Source of the DNA: Devosia oryziradicis
GTDB lineage: Bacteria; Pseudomonadota; Alphaproteobacteria; Rhizobiales; Devosiaceae
DNA length: 64,000 bases
Reading direction: 5' to 3'
Assembly: GCF_016698645.1 (NCBI RefSeq)
Contig: NZ_CP068047.1
Coordinates: forward strand, 1,275,001-1,339,000
This document shows, piece after piece, positions 18,123-58,136 of the stretch. Made by a program: the position numbers and the translations under genes. The notes below the pieces were generated by a model. It searched no databases. It was not told the origin of the DNA and worked only from the letters and a program-made list of their open reading frames with translations. Within the stretch, counting starts at the first letter, position 1. Every line of letters begins with the position of its first letter.

Positions 18123-19316
18123 TCAGGCGGCTTCCGCCCAGCCATCGGGTGACAAGGTCACCGTCTCGGCGGCATCCTGCACCGGCTTCATGATGACGTT
18201 GCCCGGCATCAACGGCAGCACCTTGAGCATGAGATTGCGCACCGCGATGCCGAATGACGAATTCGGCACGAAACCGCCGCGCGCGGACATGGCCAGTTTC
18301 TGGCTCGCGGTGGCGAACGGCTGCATGCGAGCCTGGTAGTTGGCAAAGGCCGAGACAAAGTCGCTGCCACATGCAGCCAGTTCGTGCGCCAGGATATAGG
18401 CGCCCACGACAGCAAGCCCCGTCCCCATGCCCGACAGCGGGGAGGCGCAGCATGCGGCATCGCCCAGCAGACCGATCCGGCCTTTGGACCACTTCGGCAG
18501 GCTGACCAGGCTCACGGAGTCGAAGTAGAAGTCAGCTGCATTGTCCATGTGCTTGAGCAGTTGCGGCACGTGCCAGCCCTGGCCCTGGTAGCGATGGCGG
18601 ATTGCGCCCTTCTGCGCTGCCACATCCCGCAGGTTGCCGAGGGGCTCTGGGCTGTTGAAGAAGAACATCGTCCGAGCCTCGCGGTTCTGGCGCGCGCTAT
18701 AGACACCTGCAAGTGAACCGGGTGCGCTGAAGAGGCGGCCGGAATAGTCGAGGCCGAGCGTGTTGGGGACGCTGAAGATCGAGGCGTAGAGGCCCAGGTC
18801 CTGAACCTGCGCCGCTTCGGGACCAAAGGCCATCCGGCGCAGGCTGGAGCGCAGGCCATCTGCTCCGACGACAAGGTCAAAATGCCGCTTGATGCCACTC
18901 TCGAAGATGACCTCGACCCCGTCCGGCTTGTTCTCGATAAAGGCAATGGCGTCACCAAAGATGTATTCCGTGCCAGCCTTGGTGGCGTCGTGCAGAATGC
19001 CAACCAGATCGCCACGGATGATCTCGATCTCCCCACTCATTGCCGCAGCGGGCAGAACGGCCATCTGGCGATCATTGCGGTCAACATAGATCATGTCGCC
19101 CATATGCGTGTCGCAGGCACGAACCTGCTCCAGCAGGCCCATGCGGTTGAGTACGTCGATGGCGGTGCCGCGGAAATCAACCGCATATCCGCCAGTGCGT
19201 AGCGCCGGCGCGCGCTCGACGATGGTGGCATTCAAGCCCAGCTTGCCCAGCCAGAAGGCGAGGGCTGGACCGGCAATACCGGCGCCGGCGATCAATACGG
19301 ATTTGACTTGAGACAT
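18123..19316 (-). CDS. FAD-dependent monooxygenase (TetX/PHBH-like)
   Basis: A 397-residue flavoprotein hydroxylase. The dinucleotide-binding GAGIAGPALAFWLGKLG is at about residues 9-25, a DG motif (LVVGADGLRSSLRR) near 155, and the second FAD motif GLLGDAACCASPLSGMGTGLA near 280. The group includes p-hydroxybenzoate hydroxylase and tetracycline-inactivating TetX; substrate cannot be assigned. ATG 19316 has gagga upstream. It diverges from a TetR gene across three matched operators, so it is probably induced by its own substrate. Confidence 0.9.
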   Translation of the reverse strand: MSQVKSVLIAGAGIAGPALAFWLGKLGLNATIVERAPALRTGGYAVDFRGTAIDVLNRMGLLEQVRACDTHMGDMIYVDRNDRQMAVLPAAAMSGEIEIIRGDLVGILHDATKAGTEYIFGDAIAFIENKPDGVEVIFESGIKRHFDLVVGADGLRSSLRRMAFGPEAAQVQDLGLYASIFSVPNTLGLDYSGRLFSAPGSLAGVYSARQNREARTMFFFNSPEPLGNLRDVAAQKGAIRHRYQGQGWHVPQLLKHMDNAADFYFDSVSLVSLPKWSKGRIGLLGDAACCASPLSGMGTGLAVVGAYILAHELAACGSDFVSAFANYQARMQPFATASQKLAMSARGGFVPNSSFGIAVRNLMLKVLPLMPGNVIMKPVQDAAETVTLSPDGWAEAA

Positions 19317-19346
19317 GATGATATCCTCGCTATCGATAACCAATCT

Positions 19347-19393
19347 ATACACATGTATAATACTTTTGTATAGATCAATTCATACGTTTGTAT
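19347..19393. promoter_or_regulatory. Three matched ATAC-N4-GTAT operators
   Basis: ATACACATGTAT (19347-19358), ATACTTTTGTAT (19360-19371) and ATACGTTTGTAT (19382-19393) share the dyad ATAC-N4-GTAT in the gap between the divergent FAD monooxygenase and TetR genes. They stand in an AT-rich island in otherwise GC-rich DNA and cover the likely promoters of both genes. Confidence 0.85.
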
Positions 19394-19412
19394 AAAAAAG
19401 GGGCCGGCCGGC

Positions 19413-19997
19413 ATGGGACACAAGGAAGAGTTGCTCGAGGGTGCCAAGAAAAGCCTGCTGGAGCTGGGGTTTGCCCGAACGACGGCGCGCGACATCGTCG
19501 CGCGGTCAGGAACCAATCTTGCTTCGATCGGCTATCATTTCGGCTCGAAGGACGCCTTGATGCTGGAGGCCATCACCAGCGCCATGGAGGATTGGGGCAA
19601 CGTGGTTGCCACGGCCCCGCAGGGCATCGAATATGACCGCCCGGACGAAAAATTCGTCGCCGTGTGGACGCAGATCATCGAGAGCTTCCATCGCGATCGG
19701 CCGCTCATGGTCGCAAGCTTCGAGGCCCTGATAGAGGCCGAGCACAATCCGATCCTCAAGCAGATTCTCGTCCAGGCCTATCCCGCCTCCAGCGAAGACC
19801 TGCCCGAGCAGTTTCTGACTGTCGAGGAAACGCTTGAGCCATCGGCGCGCGCCGCGCTGGGGAAAGTTCTGCTGGCGCTGATCAGTGGCGTGCTTACCCA
19901 ATACATGGTCGATCCCAAGACGGCGCCCGATGCCAATCAGCTGCTGGTCGGCCTGACGCTGCTCGGGCGCCTGCTTGGCAATAACAGCAAGGGTTGA
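19413..19997 (+). CDS. TetR/AcrR-family transcriptional regulator
   Basis: A 194-residue repressor. Helix-turn-helix at about residues 5-50 (ELLEGAKKSLLELGFARTTARDIV, then TNLASIGYHFGSKDAL), followed by a helical effector domain with TetR_C-like features around FEALIEAEHNP. It starts 20 nt after the last of three operators and diverges from the FAD monooxygenase gene. The simplest model is repression of both genes until a substrate of the monooxygenase binds. Confidence 0.93.
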   Translation: MGHKEELLEGAKKSLLELGFARTTARDIVARSGTNLASIGYHFGSKDALMLEAITSAMEDWGNVVATAPQGIEYDRPDEKFVAVWTQIIESFHRDRPLMVASFEALIEAEHNPILKQILVQAYPASSEDLPEQFLTVEETLEPSARAALGKVLLALISGVLTQYMVDPKTAPDANQLLVGLTLLGRLLGNNSKG

Positions 19998-20130
19998 GTA
20001 TCAGCTGGGCCAGAGCCCTTGGGGTGCCCTGCGATGAGTTACCGGGTAGCGGCATCGGGCTTTTCGTCTGAACCTCATAGGTCGCCCTCAGCGAGGCGGG
20101 CGTTCTTCAGCTGCGCGCCGGCCCGCGACG

Positions 20131-20676
20131 CTAGCGCGCTCCGGCGTTTTCTTTGGCTTCCGCCATCCAGTTGCTGAAGCGCTGGAACAGCCTGGCAAAG
20201 GTGACAAGATCATCTTCCGGCCAGTGACCCAGCGCGTCGGCGAAGACTCGCCATTTGTAGCGGCGGATGGCCAGCGCATGCGCGCGCCCGGCTTCGGTTA
20301 ATTCGAGCACGATGCGACGGGAATCCGATTGCGAGGCGGCCCGGCGGACAATGCCCTTGTCGACTGCATCGGCCACGATGCGGCTGGCGCGCGAAGGATC
20401 GACGTTGAGCCGCTCGGCAATGAAGCCGACCGTGGCCTCGCCTGAATGCGCCGAGCAACCTTCGAGTGCGGCAAGGATATCGAGATCGGCCACGTCGATG
20501 GGCAGTTCGAGATCGCGCAGGGCCAGGCGACCCATTTCTCGCTTGGCCATCGAGCGACGGATCTGCGCCATCACGCCGTCAATGTCGATGGTCGCCTGGG
20601 CGGCAGTTGGGGACATTCCCAGTTCAAGCAAGTGCGCGCGATGGATGGCGTATGGGTCTGGCTCAGTATCGGTCAT
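20131..20676 (-). CDS. MarR-family transcriptional regulator
   Basis: A 181-residue winged-helix regulator. The DNA-binding core covers about residues 60-135, with ATVGFIAERLNVDPSRASRIVADAVDKGIVRR followed by the wing SQSDSRRIVLELTEAG. ATG 20676 is preceded by cgagg; the longer frame starts inside the operator region. It diverges from the DHA2 efflux gene, and palindromes lie between them, which is the classical arrangement for a drug-responsive repressor of its neighbouring pump. Confidence 0.92.
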   Translation of the reverse strand: MTDTEPDPYAIHRAHLLELGMSPTAAQATIDIDGVMAQIRRSMAKREMGRLALRDLELPIDVADLDILAALEGCSAHSGEATVGFIAERLNVDPSRASRIVADAVDKGIVRRAASQSDSRRIVLELTEAGRAHALAIRRYKWRVFADALGHWPEDDLVTFARLFQRFSNWMAEAKENAGAR

Positions 20677-20696
20677 CGGGCCTCGATAGCAAATTA

Positions 20697-20734
20697 TTGG
20701 ACCAAGTCCAATATATGACCTTGACACATATGTG
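20697..20734. promoter_or_regulatory. MarR operators and promoter region
   Basis: TTGGACCAAGTCCAA (20697-20711) is a dyad with 6-bp perfect arms. A TTGACA -35-like box (20721-20726) runs into the perfect palindrome CACATATGTG (20725-20734). Their position between divergent MarR and efflux genes supports operator function. Confidence 0.7.
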
Positions 20735-20775
20735 ACCTAGGCACATTTTGGCGCCGCTTTTTTGAGGACGCTGAT

Positions 20776-22323
20776 ATGACTCAATCCACCACGATGCCGA
20801 TCTCTCACCGCCGCAAGATGGCCATCTATGGCGCTGTGCTGGTCGGGATGTTCATGGCCGTGCTCGACATGCAGATCGTAGCCACGGCCTTGCCCACAAT
20901 TGCGGCCGACCTGGGCAAACTTGAATTGTTCGGCTGGGTCGGCGCGTCCTACCTGCTGGCCACAGCGGCGGTCACGCCTTTCTACGGCAAGCTGGGCGAC
21001 CTGTTCGGACGCAAGCGGGTGTTCATGGTGGCGATCGGGCTGTTCGTCGTCGGCTCGCTCGCTTGCGGGCTGGCGTGGTCGATGGAAAGTCTGATCGCGG
21101 CGCGAGTGCTGCAAGGACTGGGCGGTGGCGGGCTGATGACCTCGGCCTTCGGCATTCTGGCCGACCTCTTCGAGCCGAGGGAGCGCGCCAAGTATCAGGG
21201 TTATAGTTCGGCAGTGTTCACCGTTTCGGGGCTGATCGGCCCGGTGGCGGGCGGGTTCATCGCCCAGGCCATCGGCTGGGAATACATTTTCCTGATCAAC
21301 CTGCCGATCGGGCTGGGCCTTATCGCCTTGCTGGCCATGGTCATGCCGAATTTTGCCACCGGACGGCAGCCCAAGATCGACTACTCGGGCGGCCTCCTGC
21401 TCGCCGGCGCGGTTACCGCGCTGGTGTTCTGGGCGGAGGAAGCCCTTGGCGGCGGCTATGGTGGGGTAATGGTCTACCTGCTGCCGCTCGTCGTCATTGC
21501 GGCCGCTGCGGCATTCGTGCTGGTCGAGCGGCGTGCCGCAGAGCCGATCGTGCCGCTGCATCTCCTCAGCAATTCCACCATCGCGCTCTCGCTTATCATC
21601 TCGGTAATTTCAGGGGTGGCGACGCTGGGTATGCTCAACTATTTCGCGCTGTTCCTGCAAACGGTGACCGGGCTGCCGCCGGCCTTCGCGGGGCTGCTGT
21701 TCCTGCCGTCCTCCGTCGGATCGTTGGTTGCCTCGGTGGGCACCGGCTTCCTGGTGTCGCGCACCGGGCGCTACAAGCCTTACCCGGTGGCGTCGATGGC
21801 ACTGGGCATTGCGGTGATGCTGGCCTTCTCGACGGTCAACGCTGCGACACCGATCTGGCTGATCGGCGTGCTCATGTTCTTCTTCTCGGTCTCGATCGGG
21901 TTGCAGATGCAGACGCTGATGGTGGCCGTGCAGTCTACGGCACCGCGGCAGGATGTCGGTGCCGCGACAGGAACGCTGACATTGGCCCGCATGATCGGGG
22001 CCTCGCTGGGTCTGGCCGCCAATGGCGGCATCCTGACTGCGGGCCTCCTGCGTGGCCAGGCCGGGATCAGCCCGGAGACGCTGGCAGCCATGCCGGGGAA
22101 GATGACCGAGATGACCCCCAGCGTGATCGCGACGCTGCCGGCCGCGGCCGGGCAGGAGGTGGTATCGGTCTTCGCCGCCGCCTTCTCGATGGTGTTCTAC
22201 AGCGGCGCCGCGCTCTTCGCCGTTGGGCTGATCTGTGCCCTCTTCATCAAGAATGTGAAGTTGCAGTCGCATGGCAAGGCACCGAGCCGGGCGCCGGAGC
22301 GACAGGCCGTGCTGGCGGAGTAG
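20776..22323 (+). CDS. DHA2-family MFS drug efflux pump (EmrB/QacA-like)
   Basis: A 515-residue inner-membrane proton antiporter with about 14 predicted helices. The DHA2 signature LVGMFMAVLDMQIVATALP is at about residues 22-40, followed by GKLGDLFGRKRVFM (loop 2-3 motif) and GPVAGGFIAQ (motif C). The length fits the 14-helix group. ATG 20776 follows gagg. It exports hydrophobic drugs or organic acids, and is probably induced when ligands release the divergent MarR protein. The following pca operon begins 171 nt later with its own repeats, so a shared role in aromatic-acid handling is only a possibility. Confidence 0.92.
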   Translation: MTQSTTMPISHRRKMAIYGAVLVGMFMAVLDMQIVATALPTIAADLGKLELFGWVGASYLLATAAVTPFYGKLGDLFGRKRVFMVAIGLFVVGSLACGLAWSMESLIAARVLQGLGGGGLMTSAFGILADLFEPRERAKYQGYSSAVFTVSGLIGPVAGGFIAQAIGWEYIFLINLPIGLGLIALLAMVMPNFATGRQPKIDYSGGLLLAGAVTALVFWAEEALGGGYGGVMVYLLPLVVIAAAAAFVLVERRAAEPIVPLHLLSNSTIALSLIISVISGVATLGMLNYFALFLQTVTGLPPAFAGLLFLPSSVGSLVASVGTGFLVSRTGRYKPYPVASMALGIAVMLAFSTVNAATPIWLIGVLMFFFSVSIGLQMQTLMVAVQSTAPRQDVGAATGTLTLARMIGASLGLAANGGILTAGLLRGQAGISPETLAAMPGKMTEMTPSVIATLPAAAGQEVVSVFAAAFSMVFYSGAALFAVGLICALFIKNVKLQSHGKAPSRAPERQAVLAE

Positions 22324-22407
22324 TTCGGCTCGACGCATTGCTGGCAATCGGAGGGCTGCGGTTATGCAATTGCGGCCCTCAGGGCTAAAATCTGATAGGT
22401 GGAAGGC

Positions 22408-22485
22408 CCAGCATAATTGGCGGGTTATCTCTCCGACTGAACTAGTCATTTTACTCGGAGCCGTCAGCCAGCATAATTGGCGGGC
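22408..22485 (+). promoter_or_regulatory. Perfect 17-bp direct repeat upstream of the pca operon
   Basis: CCAGCATAATTGGCGGG occurs at 22408-22424 and again at 22469-22485, 61 bp apart. The second copy lies 10 nt before pcaD and overlaps its leader. Between them is an imperfect dyad CCGACTGA/TACTCGG. It looks like a regulator-binding pair for the aromatic operon. Confidence 0.65.
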
Positions 22486-22494
22486 GGAGGAAGA

Positions 22495-23289
22495 ATGGCT
22501 TTTGCCTCGATCAATGGCGTCGTGCTGCATTTCAGAGTCGAGGGCCGTGCGGACGCCCCGTCGCTGGTGCTGGCCAATTCGCTGGGCACCGATGCCCGCA
22601 TCTGGGATCGGGTCATCACGCAGTTCACGCCGCGATATCGCGTTGTTTCCTATGACAAGCGCGGCCATGGGTTGAGCGACGCGCCACCCGGCGATTACCG
22701 GCTGGACGACCATGTCGACGATCTCGAGGGGCTGCTGCAGCATCTGGGCATCGAGCGGCTTGCCTTGGCCGGGGTCTCCGTCGGCGGTCTGATCGCCCAG
22801 GCTTACGCGCTACGCCATCCACACAGATTGGCGGCGCTCGTGCTCTGCGACACCGCGCCCAAGGTCGGCGACGCTGCGATGTGGAGCCAGCGCATTTCTG
22901 CCGTACGGGACAACGGGCTCGATGCAATTGTCGAGCCGGTGATGGCCCGCTGGTTCAGCGAGGGCTTCCGCAGCGGACGGTCCGTGGAACTGGCGGGGTG
23001 GCGCAACATGTTTTTGCGCATGCCCGTCGATGGCTATGCGGGCACGTGTGCGGCACTGCGCGATGCTGACCTGCGGGACGCGATCGGAGCCATTGCAACG
23101 CCGACCCTGGTCATCGTCGGGGAGCAGGATCTTTCCACGCCCGTAGACTTGGTGCGCAGCATGGCCGAGGCGATCGTGGGCGCGCGGTTCGCCATCATCC
23201 CCAATTGCGGGCATATTCCTTCCATTGAACAACCGCAGGCATTGGCTGCGGCGATGACGCAATTTCTCAACGAGGTGGGCTATGACTGA
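22495..23289 (+). CDS. pcaD: 3-oxoadipate enol-lactonase PcaD
   Basis: A 264-residue alpha/beta hydrolase that opens 3-oxoadipate enol-lactone to 3-oxoadipate. The nucleophile elbow is GVSVGG (about residues 92-97), the oxyanion region LANSLGTDARIWD, and the catalytic His is in CGHIPSIEQP near 245. ATG 22495 follows ggagg. First gene of an eight-gene operon; it overlaps pcaC by 8 bp. Confidence 0.95.
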   Translation: MAFASINGVVLHFRVEGRADAPSLVLANSLGTDARIWDRVITQFTPRYRVVSYDKRGHGLSDAPPGDYRLDDHVDDLEGLLQHLGIERLALAGVSVGGLIAQAYALRHPHRLAALVLCDTAPKVGDAAMWSQRISAVRDNGLDAIVEPVMARWFSEGFRSGRSVELAGWRNMFLRMPVDGYAGTCAALRDADLRDAIGAIATPTLVIVGEQDLSTPVDLVRSMAEAIVGARFAIIPNCGHIPSIEQPQALAAAMTQFLNEVGYD

Positions 23290-23668
23290 GGCAAGTCTAT
23301 ACGAGCGGGGCATGGCCACGCGGCGCTCGGTGCTTGGCGACACCCATGTCAACGGCGCCACCGCACGGCAGACTCCATTCGACGCCGATTTCCAGAGCTT
23401 CATCACCGAAGGCGCCTGGGGTTCGGTCTGGTCGCGGCCAGGCCTGGACAAGCGGGAGCGCTCACTGGTGACCATCGCGCTGCTGGCGGCGCTGGGGCAT
23501 GACGAGGAACTGGCCATGCATGTGCGCGCTACCATCAATACCGGCTGCTCGCCCGAGGATATCAAGGAAGCGCTGCTGCACGTGGCCGTCTATGCCGGGG
23601 TGCCGGCGGCCAATCGTGCGTTCAAGATCGCCAAGGAGGAATTGGGCAATCGGGGAGAAGCGCCATGA
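23282..23668 (+). CDS. pcaC: 4-carboxymuconolactone decarboxylase PcaC
   Basis: A 128-residue CMD-family enzyme that decarboxylates 4-carboxymuconolactone to 3-oxoadipate enol-lactone. The family core appears as [27 protein letters not shown] followed by [19 protein letters not shown]. The length matches stand-alone PcaC (not the PcaL fusion with PcaD seen in actinobacteria). Overlaps pcaD by 8 bp and pcaH by 4 bp, indicating tight translational coupling. Confidence 0.95.
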
Positions 23669-24411
23669 GCGACCTCGTCCTGCCGGGGGCGGATGGCTTG
23701 CTCTATCCGCGCGACCGGGCCTGGCATCCGCCAGCCAACACGCCGGGCTACAAGAGTTCGACTTTCAGGGCGCCGCGCCAACCCCTGCTGGCACTGGCCG
23801 GGACCACCTCGGAAAATACCGGCCCGACCTTCGGGCATTCGCGGCCCAACCCGCTCGATAACGACCTTATCCGCAATTACAGCCAGGACGGTACGGAGGC
23901 CATCGGACAGCGGCTGATCGTCTATGGCCAGGTGCTGGACGAGAATGCGCGGGCCGTGCCCAACACCCTGGTCGAATTCTGGCAGGCCAATGCCGGCGGT
24001 CGATATCGGCACAAGAAAGAGGGGTACCTGGCCGCGCTCGATCCGAATTTTGGCGGTTGCGGCCGCGCCATCACCGACGCGCAGGGATTCTACTCGTTCC
24101 GTACGGTCAAGCCGGGGGCCTATCCCTGGCCCAATGGCGGCAATGACTGGCGCCCGGCCCATATCCATTTCTCGGTCTTCGGCCATGCCTTCGCGCAGCG
24201 GCTGATAACCCAGATGTATTTCGAGGGCGATCCGATGATCTGGCAGTGCCCCATCGTTGGCACCATTCCGGACAAGGCGGCAATCGACCAGTTGATCGCG
24301 CGCCTCGACCGGCACAACACGACGCCCATGGATGCGTTGGCCTATCGTTTCGATATCGTCCTGCGTGGGCGGCGTTCGACCATGTTCGAAAACAAGCTCG
24401 AGGGAAACTGA
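23665..24411 (+). CDS. pcaH: Protocatechuate 3,4-dioxygenase beta subunit PcaH
   Basis: A 248-residue intradiol dioxygenase subunit carrying the ferric site. Ligands by family position are the Tyr of GGRYRHK, the Tyr of GAYPWPNGG, and the two His of HIHFSVFG (about residues 166-168). With PcaG it cleaves protocatechuate to 3-carboxy-cis,cis-muconate. Stop and the pcaG start share one base. Confidence 0.96.
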
Positions 24412-25022
24412 TGCTGCACCCGGTACCCAGGCTCAAGGAAACGCCATCACAGACCGCCGGCCCCTATGTGCATATCGGGATGACGCCCAATTTTGCCGAC
24501 ATCAGGGGGGTCTATGCCAGCGACCTGGGCGCCAGCATGCTGACTCCGGACACGGTGGGCGAGCGCATCGTCATCAGTGGGCGGGTTGTTGATGGCGCCG
24601 GCGCGCCGGTCGGGGACGCCGTGGTCGAGCTTTGGCAGGCCGATGCCAGTGGCGCCTATGCCGGGCCGGCCGCCCGCGGTGAGCCGGCTTTCCTGGGCTG
24701 GGGCCGGCAGCCGACAGATGCCGATGGCGTATTCACCTTCGAGACCATCAAGCCTGGCGCAGTGCCCGGCCCTGATGGGCGGCCGATGGCGCCACATGTG
24801 GCGCTTTGGATCGTGGCGCGCGGCGTCAATATCGGGCTGCAGACCCGGCTCTATTTTGCCGACGAGGCCGATGCCAATGCCACCGATTGGGTCCTGACGA
24901 AGATCGCCGATCCGTTGCGGCGCGCGACGCTCATCGCCCGCAGGGAGGAAAGCGTCGTGCCGCGATACGTGCTCGACATCCACCTGCAGGGCGAACGGGA
25001 GACGGTATTCTTCGACGTGTAG
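24411..25022 (+). CDS. pcaG: Protocatechuate 3,4-dioxygenase alpha subunit PcaG
   Basis: A 203-residue partner of PcaH in the intradiol dioxygenase. It has the same beta-sandwich fold (TPSQTAGPYVHIGM, DAVVELWQADASGAY, FTFETIKPGAVP) but lacks the Tyr/His iron ligands, as expected for the alpha chain; MAPHVALWIVARG replaces the HIHF segment. ATG 24411 overlaps the pcaH stop by one base. Confidence 0.95.
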   Translation: MLHPVPRLKETPSQTAGPYVHIGMTPNFADIRGVYASDLGASMLTPDTVGERIVISGRVVDGAGAPVGDAVVELWQADASGAYAGPAARGEPAFLGWGRQPTDADGVFTFETIKPGAVPGPDGRPMAPHVALWIVARGVNIGLQTRLYFADEADANATDWVLTKIADPLRRATLIARREESVVPRYVLDIHLQGERETVFFDV

Positions 25023-53267: not shown

Positions 53268-53351
53268 GACGGCATTCCGCGGAGGCGGGAACCCACTCTT
53301 TGGCATCGCCCCAAGGCAAGAATGGATTCCCGCCTGCGCAGGAATGACGTC
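53268..53351. repeat. Palindromic intergenic repeat, family D copy 1
   Basis: Left arm at 53268-53295 (GACGGCATTCCGCGGAGGCG...) and right arm at 53323-53351 (TGGATTCCCGCCTGCGCAGG...) are complementary with a few mismatches. Related half-copies lie at 56936-57066. Confidence 0.8.
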
Positions 53352-53365
53352 GGGACCGGGAGGGA

Positions 53366-54013
53366 CTACGCGATCTCCAGAGCTTGTCCCGCCGGGAAGA
53401 TGCCGGACATGACGGTGAAGCCAGGGATGCGGCGGACGCGGTCGGTCCAGCGGCGCAGGGCGGGATAGTCCTGGCGCCCGATGCCGCCTTCTTCGCTCAG
53501 CATCACATAGGGGAAGCAGGCGATATCGGCCGTGGTGGGGTGGGCCGGGGAGCAGAGCCAGTCGCGGCCCTCGCGCTCGCCAAACCACAGATGCTCGTCC
53601 ATCAGCCGGAAGATGCGGTGCGCGCCGGCCTGGGCTTTGGGCACGTCGAAATCGTAGAAGAAGCCCAGCGCCAAGCGGGCCGCTGACGCCGTCGAGGTGA
53701 TGTCGTCGGCCACCGCGTGCCAGCGCAGCACCTCGGCAGTGACGGCCGGATCGTCGGGGAACCACAGGCCGGTCTCGTCGTATTTCCGGGCCAGGTAGGC
53801 CAGGATGGCGCCGGAATCGGACAGGACCAGATCGTCGTCCTTGAGCACCGGGAGCTGGCCGAAGGGATTGAGGCGCAGGAACCAGTCGGCCTTGTGCTGG
53901 CGGCCGGGATAGAAATCGACCGGCACGATGTCGTAGCGCAGCTTGAGGATGCTCATCAGCAGCCGCAGCTTGTAGCAGTTGCCCGAGAGTTCGAAGTCGT
54001 AGAGGGTGATCAT
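53366..54013 (-). CDS. Glutathione S-transferase
   Basis: A 215-residue GST. The N-terminal thioredoxin-like domain carries FELSGNCYKLRLLMSIL (Ser10 or Cys13 as the likely thiol-activating residue), NPFGQLPVL with the cis-Pro, and DSGAILAYLARKY. The C-terminal helical domain has the N-capping motif TTADIACFPY. It conjugates or reduces electrophiles with glutathione; substrate unknown. Confidence 0.9.
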   Translation of the reverse strand: MITLYDFELSGNCYKLRLLMSILKLRYDIVPVDFYPGRQHKADWFLRLNPFGQLPVLKDDDLVLSDSGAILAYLARKYDETGLWFPDDPAVTAEVLRWHAVADDITSTASAARLALGFFYDFDVPKAQAGAHRIFRLMDEHLWFGEREGRDWLCSPAHPTTADIACFPYVMLSEEGGIGRQDYPALRRWTDRVRRIPGFTVMSGIFPAGQALEIA

Positions 54014-54059
54014 AGGTTGGCCTCGGCTCTGGCGTCGGGCTGGCCACGTCTACCGCGCG

Positions 54060-54170
54060 GCACTTCCCCCTCGACGGGGGAGGTTGCGAGGGGGTGGGGT
54101 TTGGCCCCGATATCCGGGTCAAACATCCCCCACCCTTGATACCTCCCCGCAAGGGGGAGGGTGTCGACTG
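54060..54170. repeat. Palindromic intergenic repeat, family C copy 2
   Basis: Aligns with copy 1 (44288-44396) over its full length: GCACTTCCCCCTCGACGGGG at the start, CCCGATATCCGGGTCAAAC in the middle, AAGGGGGAGGGTGTCGACTG at the end. Located between the GST gene and the Rieske-reductase gene, which lie on the same strand. Confidence 0.85.
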
Positions 54171-54191
54171 CTGATCCGGTGAACATCATCA

Positions 54192-55898
54192 TCAAATATC
54201 CAGCACCAGCCGCGCGGACTTCGCCCGGCTGACACAGGTCATCATGCAGCGGTTGGAGGCCTTTTCGGAATTGTTGAGATAGACGTCCTGGTGATCGACG
54301 TCGCCTTCGATGACCGTGGTGAGGCAGGTGCCGCAGGCGCCTTGTTCGCAGGAGCTGGGGACGGTGAGGCCGGCGTCGCGCATGACTTCCATGATGGTCT
54401 TGCCTGATGGAACATGGAGCGTCATGGCCGAGCGGGCCAGCTCGACATCGAAGGCCGACGAATTGTCGATGACCTTGTCGTTCTTGAAATATTCGAAGTG
54501 GATCGCCTCTTCGGGCCAGCCCTGGGCGGCGGCGGTTTCGCGGACGGTTTCGAGCATGGGGCCGGGGCCGCAGACATAGACGTGCTGCGCCATGCTCCAC
54601 TGGCCGAGGGCCGAAGCGATCGTGGCGCCGATTTCGTCGCGCGGCACGCCGGTGTGGAAGGTCACCTTGCCGTGGAGCGCTTCGAGGTCGGCGCGGAAGG
54701 CCACGGTTTCGCCGGCGCGGGTGAAGTAGTGCAGCTCATAGGGCAGGCTCGACTTGTCGAGGAAGCGAGCCATCGACAACAGCGGCGTGATGCCGATGCC
54801 GCCGGCGATGAGCACGGTGCGGGTCGCGTCGCGGCGCAGCGGGAAATTGTTGCGCGGCTCGGAAATGGAGAGCAGGTCGCCCTCGCGGACGGTTTCGACC
54901 AGGACCTTGGAGCCGCCCTTGCTGGCGCTCTCGGCCTTGACGCCGATGATGTAGCTCATCAGCTCGCCCGGGCCATTGGTGATGGAATATTGCCGCGTCA
55001 TGCCGTTGGGCAGGTGGATGTCGATATGGGCGCCGGGCTGGAAGGTGGGCAGGTGGCCGGTGCGGGCGGCGAGCTCGAAGCCGATGACGCCGTCGGCGCT
55101 GGTCCATTTGCGCTTGACCACAACAGTGATGGTGTTGCCCTTGGGGATGGCAATGTCGGGCATGGTCGCCAGGTCGGCCGAGACCTTGTCGAAAGCCGGC
55201 TGCAGGGGCTCTGGCGCCGGCTTCTTGCGGGCGGCGCGCTCGAGGCGGTCGCGCAGCTTAGTCAGGGTTTCGTTGTAGTGGCGGAGCGTTGCTACCGGCT
55301 CGGCGGGTGGTTCAGCGAGCAGGCCGCGGATCACGGCGCGGCACGCATCGACCGGCTGGACGAAATAATAGGTGCCGCCGAAACGGACGGCGAGGCCGGG
55401 CAGGAGATCGGCGGGCTGGTCGTCGGGCGCCAGGCCCGCGAGAGCGGCCAGCACGTCCTCGGGCGCGGCGTTGACGGGCATGGGGCGCAGGGCGAACCAA
55501 TCATGGCCTTCGGCGCCGGGGAAAGGACGAAAGGCCTGCTCGTCATTGGCCGCTGACCAGATGAGGCCATAGGCCTCGCGCACCGGATAGGTGCGGTTCT
55601 GGATGCGGCGGGCCGGCGCGTCGGCGGGGTGGGCGGGAATGTAGGTGCAGCCGGCGGAGCGGTTGGCATAGCGCCAGCCGTGATACTGGCACTTGAGTTC
55701 GCCGCCCTCATTGATGCCGATGGAGAGCCGAACGCCACGGTGGAGGCACCGGTTTTCCCAGACGTTGACATTGCCATCATCGGCCCGCCAGACGGCAAGC
55801 TCGCGACCCAGGAGCTGACCGGCATAGACGTGGCGGAAGGGCAGGTCCTCGCTGGAAGCGATGGGGTACCAGGTGGGGTCGGAAACGGAGAGGGTCAT
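54192..55898 (-). CDS. Rieske / flavin reductase / ferredoxin fusion protein
   Basis: A 568-residue electron-transfer chain in one polypeptide. Residues 1-110 are a Rieske domain with C51-x-H53 (NRCLHRG) and C70-x2-H73 (KCQYHGW). About 110-245 is a linker of unclear origin. A flavin reductase follows: TRQYSITNGPG (flavin) and AGGIGITPLLSMA plus VCGPGPML (nicotinamide). The last 80 residues are a plant-type ferredoxin with C517, C522, C525 and C555 (CEQGACGTC). Vanillate-demethylase reductases lack the Rieske part. It follows, by 95 nt, an oxygenase subunit that lacks a Rieske cluster. Confidence 0.9.
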   Translation of the reverse strand: MTLSVSDPTWYPIASSEDLPFRHVYAGQLLGRELAVWRADDGNVNVWENRCLHRGVRLSIGINEGGELKCQYHGWRYANRSAGCTYIPAHPADAPARRIQNRTYPVREAYGLIWSAANDEQAFRPFPGAEGHDWFALRPMPVNAAPEDVLAALAGLAPDDQPADLLPGLAVRFGGTYYFVQPVDACRAVIRGLLAEPPAEPVATLRHYNETLTKLRDRLERAARKKPAPEPLQPAFDKVSADLATMPDIAIPKGNTITVVVKRKWTSADGVIGFELAARTGHLPTFQPGAHIDIHLPNGMTRQYSITNGPGELMSYIIGVKAESASKGGSKVLVETVREGDLLSISEPRNNFPLRRDATRTVLIAGGIGITPLLSMARFLDKSSLPYELHYFTRAGETVAFRADLEALHGKVTFHTGVPRDEIGATIASALGQWSMAQHVYVCGPGPMLETVRETAAAQGWPEEAIHFEYFKNDKVIDNSSAFDVELARSAMTLHVPSGKTIMEVMRDAGLTVPSSCEQGACGTCLTTVIEGDVDHQDVYLNNSEKASNRCMMTCVSRAKSARLVLDI

Positions 55899-55993
55899 GC
55901 AGTCATCCGAGGTTCGTCAGGGATCGCGCCACGATCGGATGAGGTCGTTGTCCTGCCGCCCTGGCGTACGGGGCGACCCGATCCTGCTCTCAA

Positions 55994-56887
55994 CTACGAC
56001 GCCATCGGGATGACGCCGTAGGTGATGCCCTTCTGGCTGAGCCAACGGCGGTAGGCGATGGCGGACTTGTCGGCGCGGATGGGGGTTTCCGAGCGCGGGT
56101 CGAGGGGGAGGCGCTTGGGATACTGGTTTTCGAGGATGGGCTTGTCCTGGCCGAAAATGGTCTGCTGGAAGCGGCGCAGGTCGGTGATGGTCGAGGTCGA
56201 GTCGATCATCGACTGCAGCAGGTGAGCGCGGCAGCGCTCCTCGGTCATGGGCTGGAGGAAAATGGCGATGACGTCGCGGCGCGACTCGTCTTCGGGGCAG
56301 GACTTGTAGAGCACCGAACAGAAGGGATGGGGCACGCGGTAGACGTATTCGACTTCCATCGCCGTAGTAGCCGACTTGGCGGCGCGCGGCTGGATGAAAC
56401 GGCAGCGGGTGGCGAGCACCTCGTCGCGCTCCTCGGACACTTCGACGTCGTATTCCTTGACCTCGGTATGGGGCTCGGCGCCGAGGATATCGGTGTGGAC
56501 ATAGGGGAAGTGGCCCATGTCGAGGAAGTTCTCGACGGCGCGCGGAGCCGAGACATGGATGCCGATGGAGCCGCAGCTCATGTTCTTGCGATCGGCCTCG
56601 GCATATTCGGGGATGGGGAAGAGATCGGCGGGCGGATTGCCAAGGCTGGTCCAGATATAGCCATAGCCGGTCGTGGCGGGGAGACGGTCGAGGATGGCCT
56701 CGGCATCGACCTCGTCGCCCTGTTCCTCGTCGGTACGGCGCCACACGACGGGATTGCCAGCGTTGTCGCGGGTCAGGGCGATGGGAGTGTCGAGCAGCAG
56801 GGTGGTCTCAACAATGCCCGGCGCGATCTCGTCGGTGGCTGCGATGACCTGCCAGAGGTCGCGGGTTGTGGGATCGATGGAGGGCAT
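55994..56887 (-). CDS. Oxygenase alpha-subunit-like protein with degenerate, ligand-free Rieske domain
   Basis: A 297-residue protein, clearly shorter than ordinary alpha subunits (350-450). Residues 10-95 start like a Rieske domain (LWQVIAATDEIAPGIVETTL) and resume at YGYIWTSLGNP, but the C-x-H and C-x2-H loops are absent. The catalytic domain is intact: ENFLDMGHFPYVH gives D123, H126 and H131, two of them iron ligands and one the electron-bridge Asp. A C-terminal acidic ligand probably lies in ITDLRRFQQ. It likely hydroxylates or demethylates an organic substrate, taking electrons from the neighbouring Rieske-reductase. Confidence 0.85.
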   Translation of the reverse strand: MPSIDPTTRDLWQVIAATDEIAPGIVETTLLLDTPIALTRDNAGNPVVWRRTDEEQGDEVDAEAILDRLPATTGYGYIWTSLGNPPADLFPIPEYAEADRKNMSCGSIGIHVSAPRAVENFLDMGHFPYVHTDILGAEPHTEVKEYDVEVSEERDEVLATRCRFIQPRAAKSATTAMEVEYVYRVPHPFCSVLYKSCPEDESRRDVIAIFLQPMTEERCRAHLLQSMIDSTSTITDLRRFQQTIFGQDKPILENQYPKRLPLDPRSETPIRADKSAIAYRRWLSQKGITYGVIPMAS

Positions 56888-56935: not shown

Positions 56936-57066
56936 GTCATTCCCGCCAAGCGGGAATCTGGTTTGCGCGGGAATGACGAATGCCGTGGTGGCCTGTAAGG
57001 TCCGCACAGCACCGAGTCATCGTCGGTGAGCAGAAAGAGTGGATTCCCGCCTCCGCGGGAGTGACG
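56936..57066. repeat. Palindromic intergenic repeats, family D copies 2a and 2b
   Basis: GTCATTCCCGC (56936-56946) pairs with GCGGGAATGAC (56967-56977). A second, single-arm copy TGGATTCCCGCCTCCGCGGG is at 57040-57059, running to GTGACG at 57066. Both resemble the arms of copy 1 (53268). The 205-nt gap between the divergent oxygenase and dehydrogenase genes is largely this element. Confidence 0.8.
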
Positions 57067-57092
57067 CCGCGTTTGGGCGAGGTCTTTGAGTT

Positions 57093-58136
57093 ATGCAGGG
57101 TAACCAGGCACAGCGGTTTCCGGTAGCAGTTCTGGAGCAGAAGGTCGCGGCGGCGCTGAGAGGGGCAGGTGCCAGCGAGGCGTCGCTGGCGGCCGCGGTG
57201 CGGGCGATGCTGCATGCTTCTCTGGTGGGGGTGGACAGCCACGGCGTGCGGTTGACAGAGCACTATTGCACCATGCTTGGCGGCGGGCGGCTCAACAAGA
57301 ATCCGCAGCTGAAGGTCGATGTTCGGGGCCCTGGCAGCGCCATGGTCAATGGCGATGACGGACTGGGCCACTACGCCGCCTACAAGGCCGTGGACGTCGC
57401 GATCGAACTGGCGCTGGAGGCTGGGGTGGGTGCCGTCGGCATCGAACATTCCTCGCATCTGGGGGCGGCAGGCGCCTATGCGCTAGCCGGGGCAGAGCGG
57501 GGCTTTGTCACCTTTGCGACGACCAACACCGACTCCATGGTGGCGCTGTTCGATGGTGCCGCGCGCTTTCATGGCACCAACCCGCTGGCCTTCGCCGCGC
57601 CGGTGCCCGGCAGCAAGCCGTGGCTGCTCGATATGGCGACATCGTCGATCCCGATGAACCGGGTGTTGCTGCATCGCTCGCTGGGGCTGGAGCTTCCTGC
57701 CGGGGTGGCGGCAGACAAGGACGGTCGGGCGACCACCGATCCGCAAGCGGCCGAAATGCTGCTGCCGCTGGGCGGCGCTGAATACGGCTATAAGGGTGCA
57801 GCGCTGGCAGGAGTGGCGACGCTGTTTTCGGCCCTGCTGACGGGTACGACGCTCGATGCCGACTTCATCCCTATGTATGGCGGACCCGGAGGCGACATCT
57901 CAACGCCGCGCAACATGGGGCATTTCGTGCTGGTCATCGATCCGGACAAGTTCGCCGGACGCGACCTGTTCGGCGCTATGGTCACGCGATACCTCGCCAG
58001 CCTGCGCGGCGCGCCGGTGCGCGAGGGCGCAGAGCGGGTGATGGCGCCGGGCGATCGGGAATGGGAAGAGATGGCCCGGCGGCAGCAGGATGGAGTGCCG
58101 GTCGATCCAGATACCGCGCGCTTCCTGGGGCTCTAG
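57093..58136 (+). CDS. Type-2 malate/L-lactate dehydrogenase family (Ldh_2)
   Basis: A 347-residue NAD(P)-dependent oxidoreductase of the YlbC/Mdh2 type, unrelated to Rossmann dehydrogenases. Signatures are MLHASLVGVDSHGVRL (about residues 42-57), IEHSSHLGAAGAYAL (catalytic His), GTNPLAFAAP and YKGAALAGV. Family substrates include malate, lactate, ureidoglycolate and imine-type keto acids. It diverges from the oxygenase operon across repeats; a shared substrate is possible but unproven. Confidence 0.9.
   Translation: MQGNQAQRFPVAVLEQKVAAALRGAGASEASLAAAVRAMLHASLVGVDSHGVRLTEHYCTMLGGGRLNKNPQLKVDVRGPGSAMVNGDDGLGHYAAYKAVDVAIELALEAGVGAVGIEHSSHLGAAGAYALAGAERGFVTFATTNTDSMVALFDGAARFHGTNPLAFAAPVPGSKPWLLDMATSSIPMNRVLLHRSLGLELPAGVAADKDGRATTDPQAAEMLLPLGGAEYGYKGAALAGVATLFSALLTGTTLDADFIPMYGGPGGDISTPRNMGHFVLVIDPDKFAGRDLFGAMVTRYLASLRGAPVREGAERVMAPGDREWEEMARRQQDGVPVDPDTARFLGL

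Follow-up and report, generated by a model that had tools for sequence, protein, structure and literature searches.

In oxygenases of the VanA/NdmA/SxtT type (α3), the Rieske cluster and the mononuclear iron are housed in one chain, whereas in Devosia oryziradicis they are found in two proteins encoded by neighbouring genes. Is this divided set a functional oxygenase, and does its layout have a precedent? The window, i.e., the whole stretch of 64,000 nucleotides that was analysed, carries three minus-strand genes, termed C, D and E in the order of transcription. Gene C (positions 55994-56887) codes for an NdmC-like oxygenase subunit of 297 amino acids (aa) that has no Rieske cluster, and gene D (54192-55898) for an NdmD-like Rieske-reductase fusion of 568 aa. 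Gene E (53366-54013), the third of the set, starts 178 bases 3′ of gene D and codes for a 215-aa NdmE-like protein with a glutathione S-transferase (GST) fold, as judged from its GST_N match and its identity to NdmE. The coordinates of C and D are those that an earlier sequence-only reading had correctly assigned. A divergent plus-strand neighbour (57093-58136) codes for a dehydrogenase of the Ldh2 family (PF02615, 5e-92), a possible partner. When compared with three Devosia relatives, C and D gave dN/dS values of 0.12-0.18 (0.12-0.15 for C), and E gave 0.06-0.10 with two Devosia relatives; by this measure all three genes are under purifying selection.

The D-E gap (54014-54191) contains a repeat element that is matched 41 times in its own genome, itself included, most of the matches being partial; in the relative L037 the same gap is three bases long. 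Short repeat copies lie at 57034-57069 (upstream of the Ldh2 gene) and at 53277-53352 (just downstream of E), and further copies were found at other places in the genome, in either orientation.

The oxygenase subunit and its lost cluster

The Pfam domains of C, D and E were called at E ≤ 0.001. At this threshold C matched oxygenase C-terminal domains only (VanA_C, 3.2e-23; KshA_C, 3.8e-6) and no Rieske domain, and the canonical C-x-H and C-x2-H ligands are absent from it. Residues 11-100 (56588-56857) form a shrunken Rieske-type domain, recognized by profile match, pLDDT and length, from which the cluster loops are deleted. The alignment with intact relatives showed that the start and end of the domain are retained, and that the span from W12 to G76 comprises 65 residues in C vs 99-105 in six intact oxygenases. 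The alignment thus indicates that the cluster was lost by deletion of the stretch holding its loops, and not by a frameshift. In profile comparisons, residues 1-95 of C matched intact oxygenases with a probability of 98.4 and the N-terminus of D with a score of 74.6, a value reached by none of 150 shuffles. In the predicted model of C (pLDDT 87.5, pTM 0.88) the residual domain has a compact fold, with a pLDDT of 95-98 by ten-residue block.

The mononuclear iron site is retained. The motif at residues 119-131 (56495-56533) contains D123, H126 and H131, and in alignment A2 (53 sequences) D123 and H131 were present in every sequence and H126 in 52, the single exception being an arginine in the relative L137. 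D248 (56144-56146), likewise present in 53 of 53, is the likely third iron ligand, a role that we assume by analogy with NdmA-type oxygenases. Alignment A2 takes in several first copies of tandem C genes, and D123, H131 and D248 are kept in these as well. Hence, both parts of the proposal made from the sequence, that C has lost all four Rieske ligands and that it has kept its mononuclear iron site, are borne out.

The Rieske-reductase fusion

Protein D had been described as an intact Rieske domain (C51/H53/C70/H73) fused to a flavin reductase and a plant-type ferredoxin, and the domain analysis agrees with this description. Pfam matches were obtained for Rieske (2.2e-18), Fer2 (3.1e-14), NAD_binding_1 and DmmA-like_N. 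The Rieske domain spans residues 9-92 (55623-55874), with each of its four ligands present in 35 of 35 sequences of alignment A3. The plant-type 2Fe-2S ferredoxin domain spans residues 487-560 (54219-54440); its four cysteines are also conserved in 35/35, and it matched the NdmD ferredoxin domain (6icm_D) at 1.6e-20. Residues 257-480 (54459-55130) make up the flavin- and NAD-binding reductase part, as indicated by phthalate dioxygenase reductase (2PIA) and other reductases. Residues 267-568 of D matched residues 19-321 of the 321 of 2PIA (1.9e-65), a chain without a Rieske domain; the flavin part is assigned by this homology, no flavin Pfam model having passed.

Between the Rieske and reductase parts lies a stretch, residues 118-256 (55131-55547), that is probably the remnant of an oxygenase catalytic domain without the iron ligands. 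In profile comparisons it scored 37.2 over 49 columns (probability 73) with the catalytic domain of C, against best shuffle scores of 22.5 in 150 controls and 23.2 in 100 more. With the tail of the unfused Rieske proteins described below it scored 42.0 (best shuffles 15.9 and 15.1). The match to the catalytic domain of intact oxygenases was weak, with a score of 22.9 and a probability of 4.9, the highest of 150 shuffles being 17.3. Two of these shuffle controls were repeated, and in each case 0/100 reached the observed score. The unfused tail itself gave no convincing match to the catalytic domains of C (probability 10) or of intact oxygenases (0.3); the comparison with C was not used because 8 of 150, and then 2 of 100, shuffles reached the observed score, some exceeding 130.

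The predicted structure of D (mean pLDDT 83.2, pTM 0.53) points in the same direction. A well-predicted block at residues 135-225 consists of a strand, a helix, four strands and a long helix, an order that, compared by eye, is that of the C catalytic fold minus segment 123-176. In the Foldseek search, ranks 8-31 for D were SxtT/GxtA chains, which are whole Rieske oxygenases, with TMt values of 0.51-0.56; by our estimate, these are higher than expected from the Rieske domain alone. Since D seems to retain a shrunken catalytic domain, C and D appear to be two halves, each of which has lost what the other keeps.

Precedent and distribution of the layout

The sequence-only reading knew of no characterised example of this layout, but one has been published. 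NdmCDE of Pseudomonas putida CBB5 is described as the 7-methylxanthine N7-demethylase complex of the caffeine pathway. In these accounts NdmC, a non-heme iron monooxygenase, lacks a Rieske cluster; NdmD, the reductase, carries an additional Rieske domain, which is described as having separated from the oxygenase and become joined to the reductase; and NdmE is a GST-like protein needed for solubility and activity. The three are reported to form one soluble complex in P. putida, and the Rieske domain of NdmD to be needed; the structure of the complex is stated to be unsolved (PMC13237722). NdmD is also reported to serve NdmA and NdmB; the accessible text of PMC12445004 names it as the reductase of these two and does not include NdmC. 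Homologues of ndmCDE in Sinorhizobium and Mesorhizobium have been noted in print as being of unknown function. Further searches of the open-access literature returned nothing more on the split layout, and no paper for 7-methylguanine together with Rieske. The proposal that the cluster had moved to the reductase, with an electron relay in trans, is partly supported; the layout is that of NdmCDE, for which a characterised example exists. By sequence, the C-D-E set is another member of the known NdmCDE layout.

As a stand-in for CBB5 we used the plasmid cluster of P. putida MT178 (L033), whose NdmA is 92% identical to a 217-residue stretch of the PDB NdmA. Other genes of this cluster code for a nucleobase symporter, a second oxygenase and an S-(hydroxymethyl)glutathione dehydrogenase, and fghA is present as well. 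The window proteins share with its NdmC, NdmD and NdmE 43% (291 columns), 37% (594) and 59% (214) identity, respectively, and C scored 260 bits against NdmC vs 65 bits against NdmA. Gene order, the Rieske-less oxygenase, the Rieske-flavin-ferredoxin fusion and the GST-like partner are common to both sets, with homology over nearly the full lengths. Unlike NdmCDE, the window C falls in a sister group, and no ndmA, ndmB, purine permease or formaldehyde genes were found beside the Devosia set. Outside Devosia, the homologues of Sinorhizobium and Mesorhizobium are close to the window set (65% identity for C, 56-57% for D and 71-72% for E); their sets have a BMP transporter operon and a GntR regulator, and in Mesorhizobium also a guanine deaminase gene, whereas Devosia has Ldh2 instead. 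Among solved oxygenases, SxtT/GxtA are the best matches by sequence of both the C catalytic and the D Rieske domains, and also the best match of C by fold.

To learn how widespread the layout is, C relatives were sought in 84,980 species, each represented by a single genome, and at least 530 were confirmed. The locus counts given here rest on the best 80 of these at least 530, in which C-type ORFs were labelled by best hit. Among the matches listed, the best were from Devosia, and D was found in 57 of 75 Devosia genomes at E ≤ 1e-100. In the 80 loci, all 113 C-type ORFs were without the Rieske pattern, and 111 had the iron motif; of the two misses, one is L108, a short ORF close to the start of its contig that begins inside the motif, and the other is the arginine variant. 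The sequence-only reading had proposed a genome search for C and D as a co-occurring pair, and such a pair was found: a Rieske-bearing D lies directly 3′ of C in 70/80 loci, followed by E in 64. Among the ten loci without D by this position rule, three (L070, L131, L133) end just after C, three (L110, L143, L147) have D overlapping or elsewhere, and in four (L126, L134, L141, L148) no D was found. By a script rule, two C genes occur in a row in 27 of the 80. In several loci, among them L088, L089, L097, L115, L117 and L123, a single fusion is preceded by a tandem of two distinct genes for Rieske-less oxygenases.

Within the order of D. oryziradicis, 51 of 297 genomes matched, its own included, and stretches from 29 of the 50 others were compared. 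A Rieske-less C is present in 26 of these and intact oxygenases in the remaining three. All 26 also have a Rieske-pattern ORF in the stretch, fused in 15 and unfused in 11. The unfused version (L030, 11279-13427; L051-L055; L061-L066) consists of a Rieske protein of ∼180-270 aa, a Rieske-less oxygenase and usually a GST. Ten of the 11 unfused stretches hold a GST-like ORF; an ORF matching the reductases of the reference set was detected in one of them only (L066); and in L051, L053 and L064 the Rieske gene lies kilobases from C rather than adjoining it. Annotated examples are found in Rhizobium johnstonii (L030) and in Komagataeibacter nataicola from kombucha (L035). In the latter locus (19197-24687), Rieske-less oxygenases, GSTs and stand-alone Rieske proteins are encoded twice each, together with a separate reductase; the second of its Rieske proteins (23336-23869) is without the standard ligand pattern.

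Phylogenies were quick trees without bootstrap, with rows chosen by similarity, and the oxygenase tree carries a long-branch warning. Here, one branch (SH-aLRT 98) separated 65 C-type proteins from 14 intact oxygenases. The 25 fused Rieske domains formed one group (95) and the 13 unfused another (91). The caffeine-cluster NdmC grouped with L028 and L029 (99*), and this group joined the unfused clade (94); the window C fell in a 35-row group (95*) without the caffeine-cluster NdmC. The layout represents a genuine and conserved type of enzyme that extends well beyond caffeine degraders, into Alphaproteobacteria, Gammaproteobacteria and Actinomycetota. Its fused, unfused and double-oxygenase versions together offer a natural experiment on rewired inter-subunit electron transfer in Rieske oxygenases.

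Proposed reaction and alternatives

The neighbouring genes were used to assess the substrate class. Among the best 80 of the at least 530 loci, 43 had a match to a BMP-type transporter, 13 to frmA, 8 to guanine deaminase and 7 to fghA; these counts come from related genomes, are not independent and are inflated by relatedness. The D. oryziradicis genome has two BMP genes in 3.5 Mb, and if its relatives resemble it, the link with the transporter would be far above chance, relatedness inflating the counts. Formaldehyde-detoxification genes lie directly behind E in fusion relatives such as L043, L045, L090 and L097. The BMP transporter, guanine deaminase and formaldehyde-detoxification neighbours of the relatives therefore suggest purine N-demethylation. 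Apart from distant hits to ABC ATPases, the loci of the Devosia relatives contained no match to a BMP transporter, a guanine deaminase or a formaldehyde gene. Elsewhere in the D. oryziradicis genome (L156, C1:1462000-1481500) there are genes for xanthine dehydrogenase, a BMP transporter, guanine deaminase, malate synthase G and adenine deaminase; XdhB and XdhC scored above the NCBIfam cut-off, and XdhA, on a cut ORF, just below it. A formaldehyde dehydrogenase gene (frmA) is also present. This gene content fits a putative purine N-demethylase feeding xanthine dehydrogenase. The Ldh2 gene was matched next to C in 14 of the 18 loci that are from Devosia or Devosia-like. It gives no clear pointer to the reaction; among solved structures, it is closest to malate- and ureidoglycolate-dehydrogenase entries. 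Direct caffeine degradation is not supported, with no ndmA/ndmB in the cluster and C outside the caffeine NdmC group.

It is very probable that the products of C, D and E make up an N-demethylase complex of the NdmCDE type or a closely similar monooxygenase complex. We infer that the Devosia proteins assemble and relay electrons as NdmCDE does, largely as the sequence-only reading had guessed. NADH would reduce the flavin of D, and the electrons would then pass to its plant-type ferredoxin domain and on to its Rieske cluster, the likely order of carriers. The Rieske cluster would dock beside C and deliver electrons across the subunit interface to the mononuclear iron near D123. C would then oxidise a small, presumably purine-like substrate, most likely with removal of an N-methyl group as formaldehyde. 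E would hold C and D together, a structural role taken from the published work on NdmCDE.

The same complex and relay could carry out a different reaction, such as hydroxylation of the purine ring (as in the HpxD family) or oxidation of an unrelated amine, with Ldh2 acting on the product. Consistent with this are the position of the window C in a different group from the caffeine NdmC, the Ldh2 gene beside C in those 14 of 18 loci, the hydroxylases SxtT/GxtA as nearest solved structures by sequence and fold, and the HpxD xanthine hydroxylases among the distant matches; yet the formaldehyde-detoxification genes directly behind E in fusion relatives such as the four named above favour demethylation, and we regard another reaction as rather unlikely. 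A second possibility, that C is decaying or inactive and D serves other Rieske oxygenases, bears on the enzyme itself. C is without a cluster, NdmD is reported to serve NdmA and NdmB too, and the genome does hold other candidates. PF00355 was found in five places, D among them, with no further Rieske oxygenase gene beside the window set and no ndmA/ndmB in the same cluster. Two of these places are complete Rieske oxygenases; the others are a 180-aa protein (L058) that matches Pfam Rieske_2 and looks, we presume, NirD-type, and a 182-aa frame (L005). The sequence-only reading had named a complete α subunit elsewhere using the fusion as a point against it. Two complete oxygenases exist, but one adjoins a reductase gene and the other has a reductase gene one gene away, and because of these nearby reductase genes the use of D by either of them instead of C is less likely. 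Moreover, the iron ligands and D123 are nearly invariant, dN/dS for C is 0.12-0.15, and C-type ORFs are without the cluster in 113/113 cases across phyla (best 80 of at least 530 loci), so that an inactive C is very improbable.

An annotation artefact, in which the cluster loops are encoded but lost from the gene model by a frameshift or a wrong start, can be given hardly any weight, since the deletion affects the same region in aligned relatives and the residual domain is predicted to be compact (pLDDT 95-98). The frameshift that had been named as a possible refutation was not seen in the aligned relatives. C as a pseudogene or frameshifted gene was ruled out by the shared deletion, the conserved ligands, dN/dS and the compact predicted fold.

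The proposed NdmCDE-type complex can be combined with the reciprocal stripping of C and D into a wider reading, on which we are evenly divided: that C and D are two copies of one α subunit with complementary losses, acting as alternating α/α′ partners, and that the large non-caffeine group is a widespread purine N-demethylase. C would have lost the Rieske loops, and the N-terminal half of D would have lost the mononuclear iron site and kept the remnant at ∼135-225. The unfused Rieske proteins of the Rhizobium-type relatives would represent the state that preceded or followed the fusion. If this is true, α/α′ pairing would explain how the Rieske cluster could move to the reductase without loss of docking geometry. 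The natural substrate of the non-caffeine group would not be caffeine, and could be 7-methylated purines from nucleic-acid turnover.

Two further D homologues were recorded in pieces. In plasmid pPp1290 of P. putida 1290 (L032, 14706-16461) the homologue is annotated as three separate pieces, and in a genome of the same genus as the window (G300, C2:950160-951865) it appears as two overlapping matches, one with two internal TGA codons.
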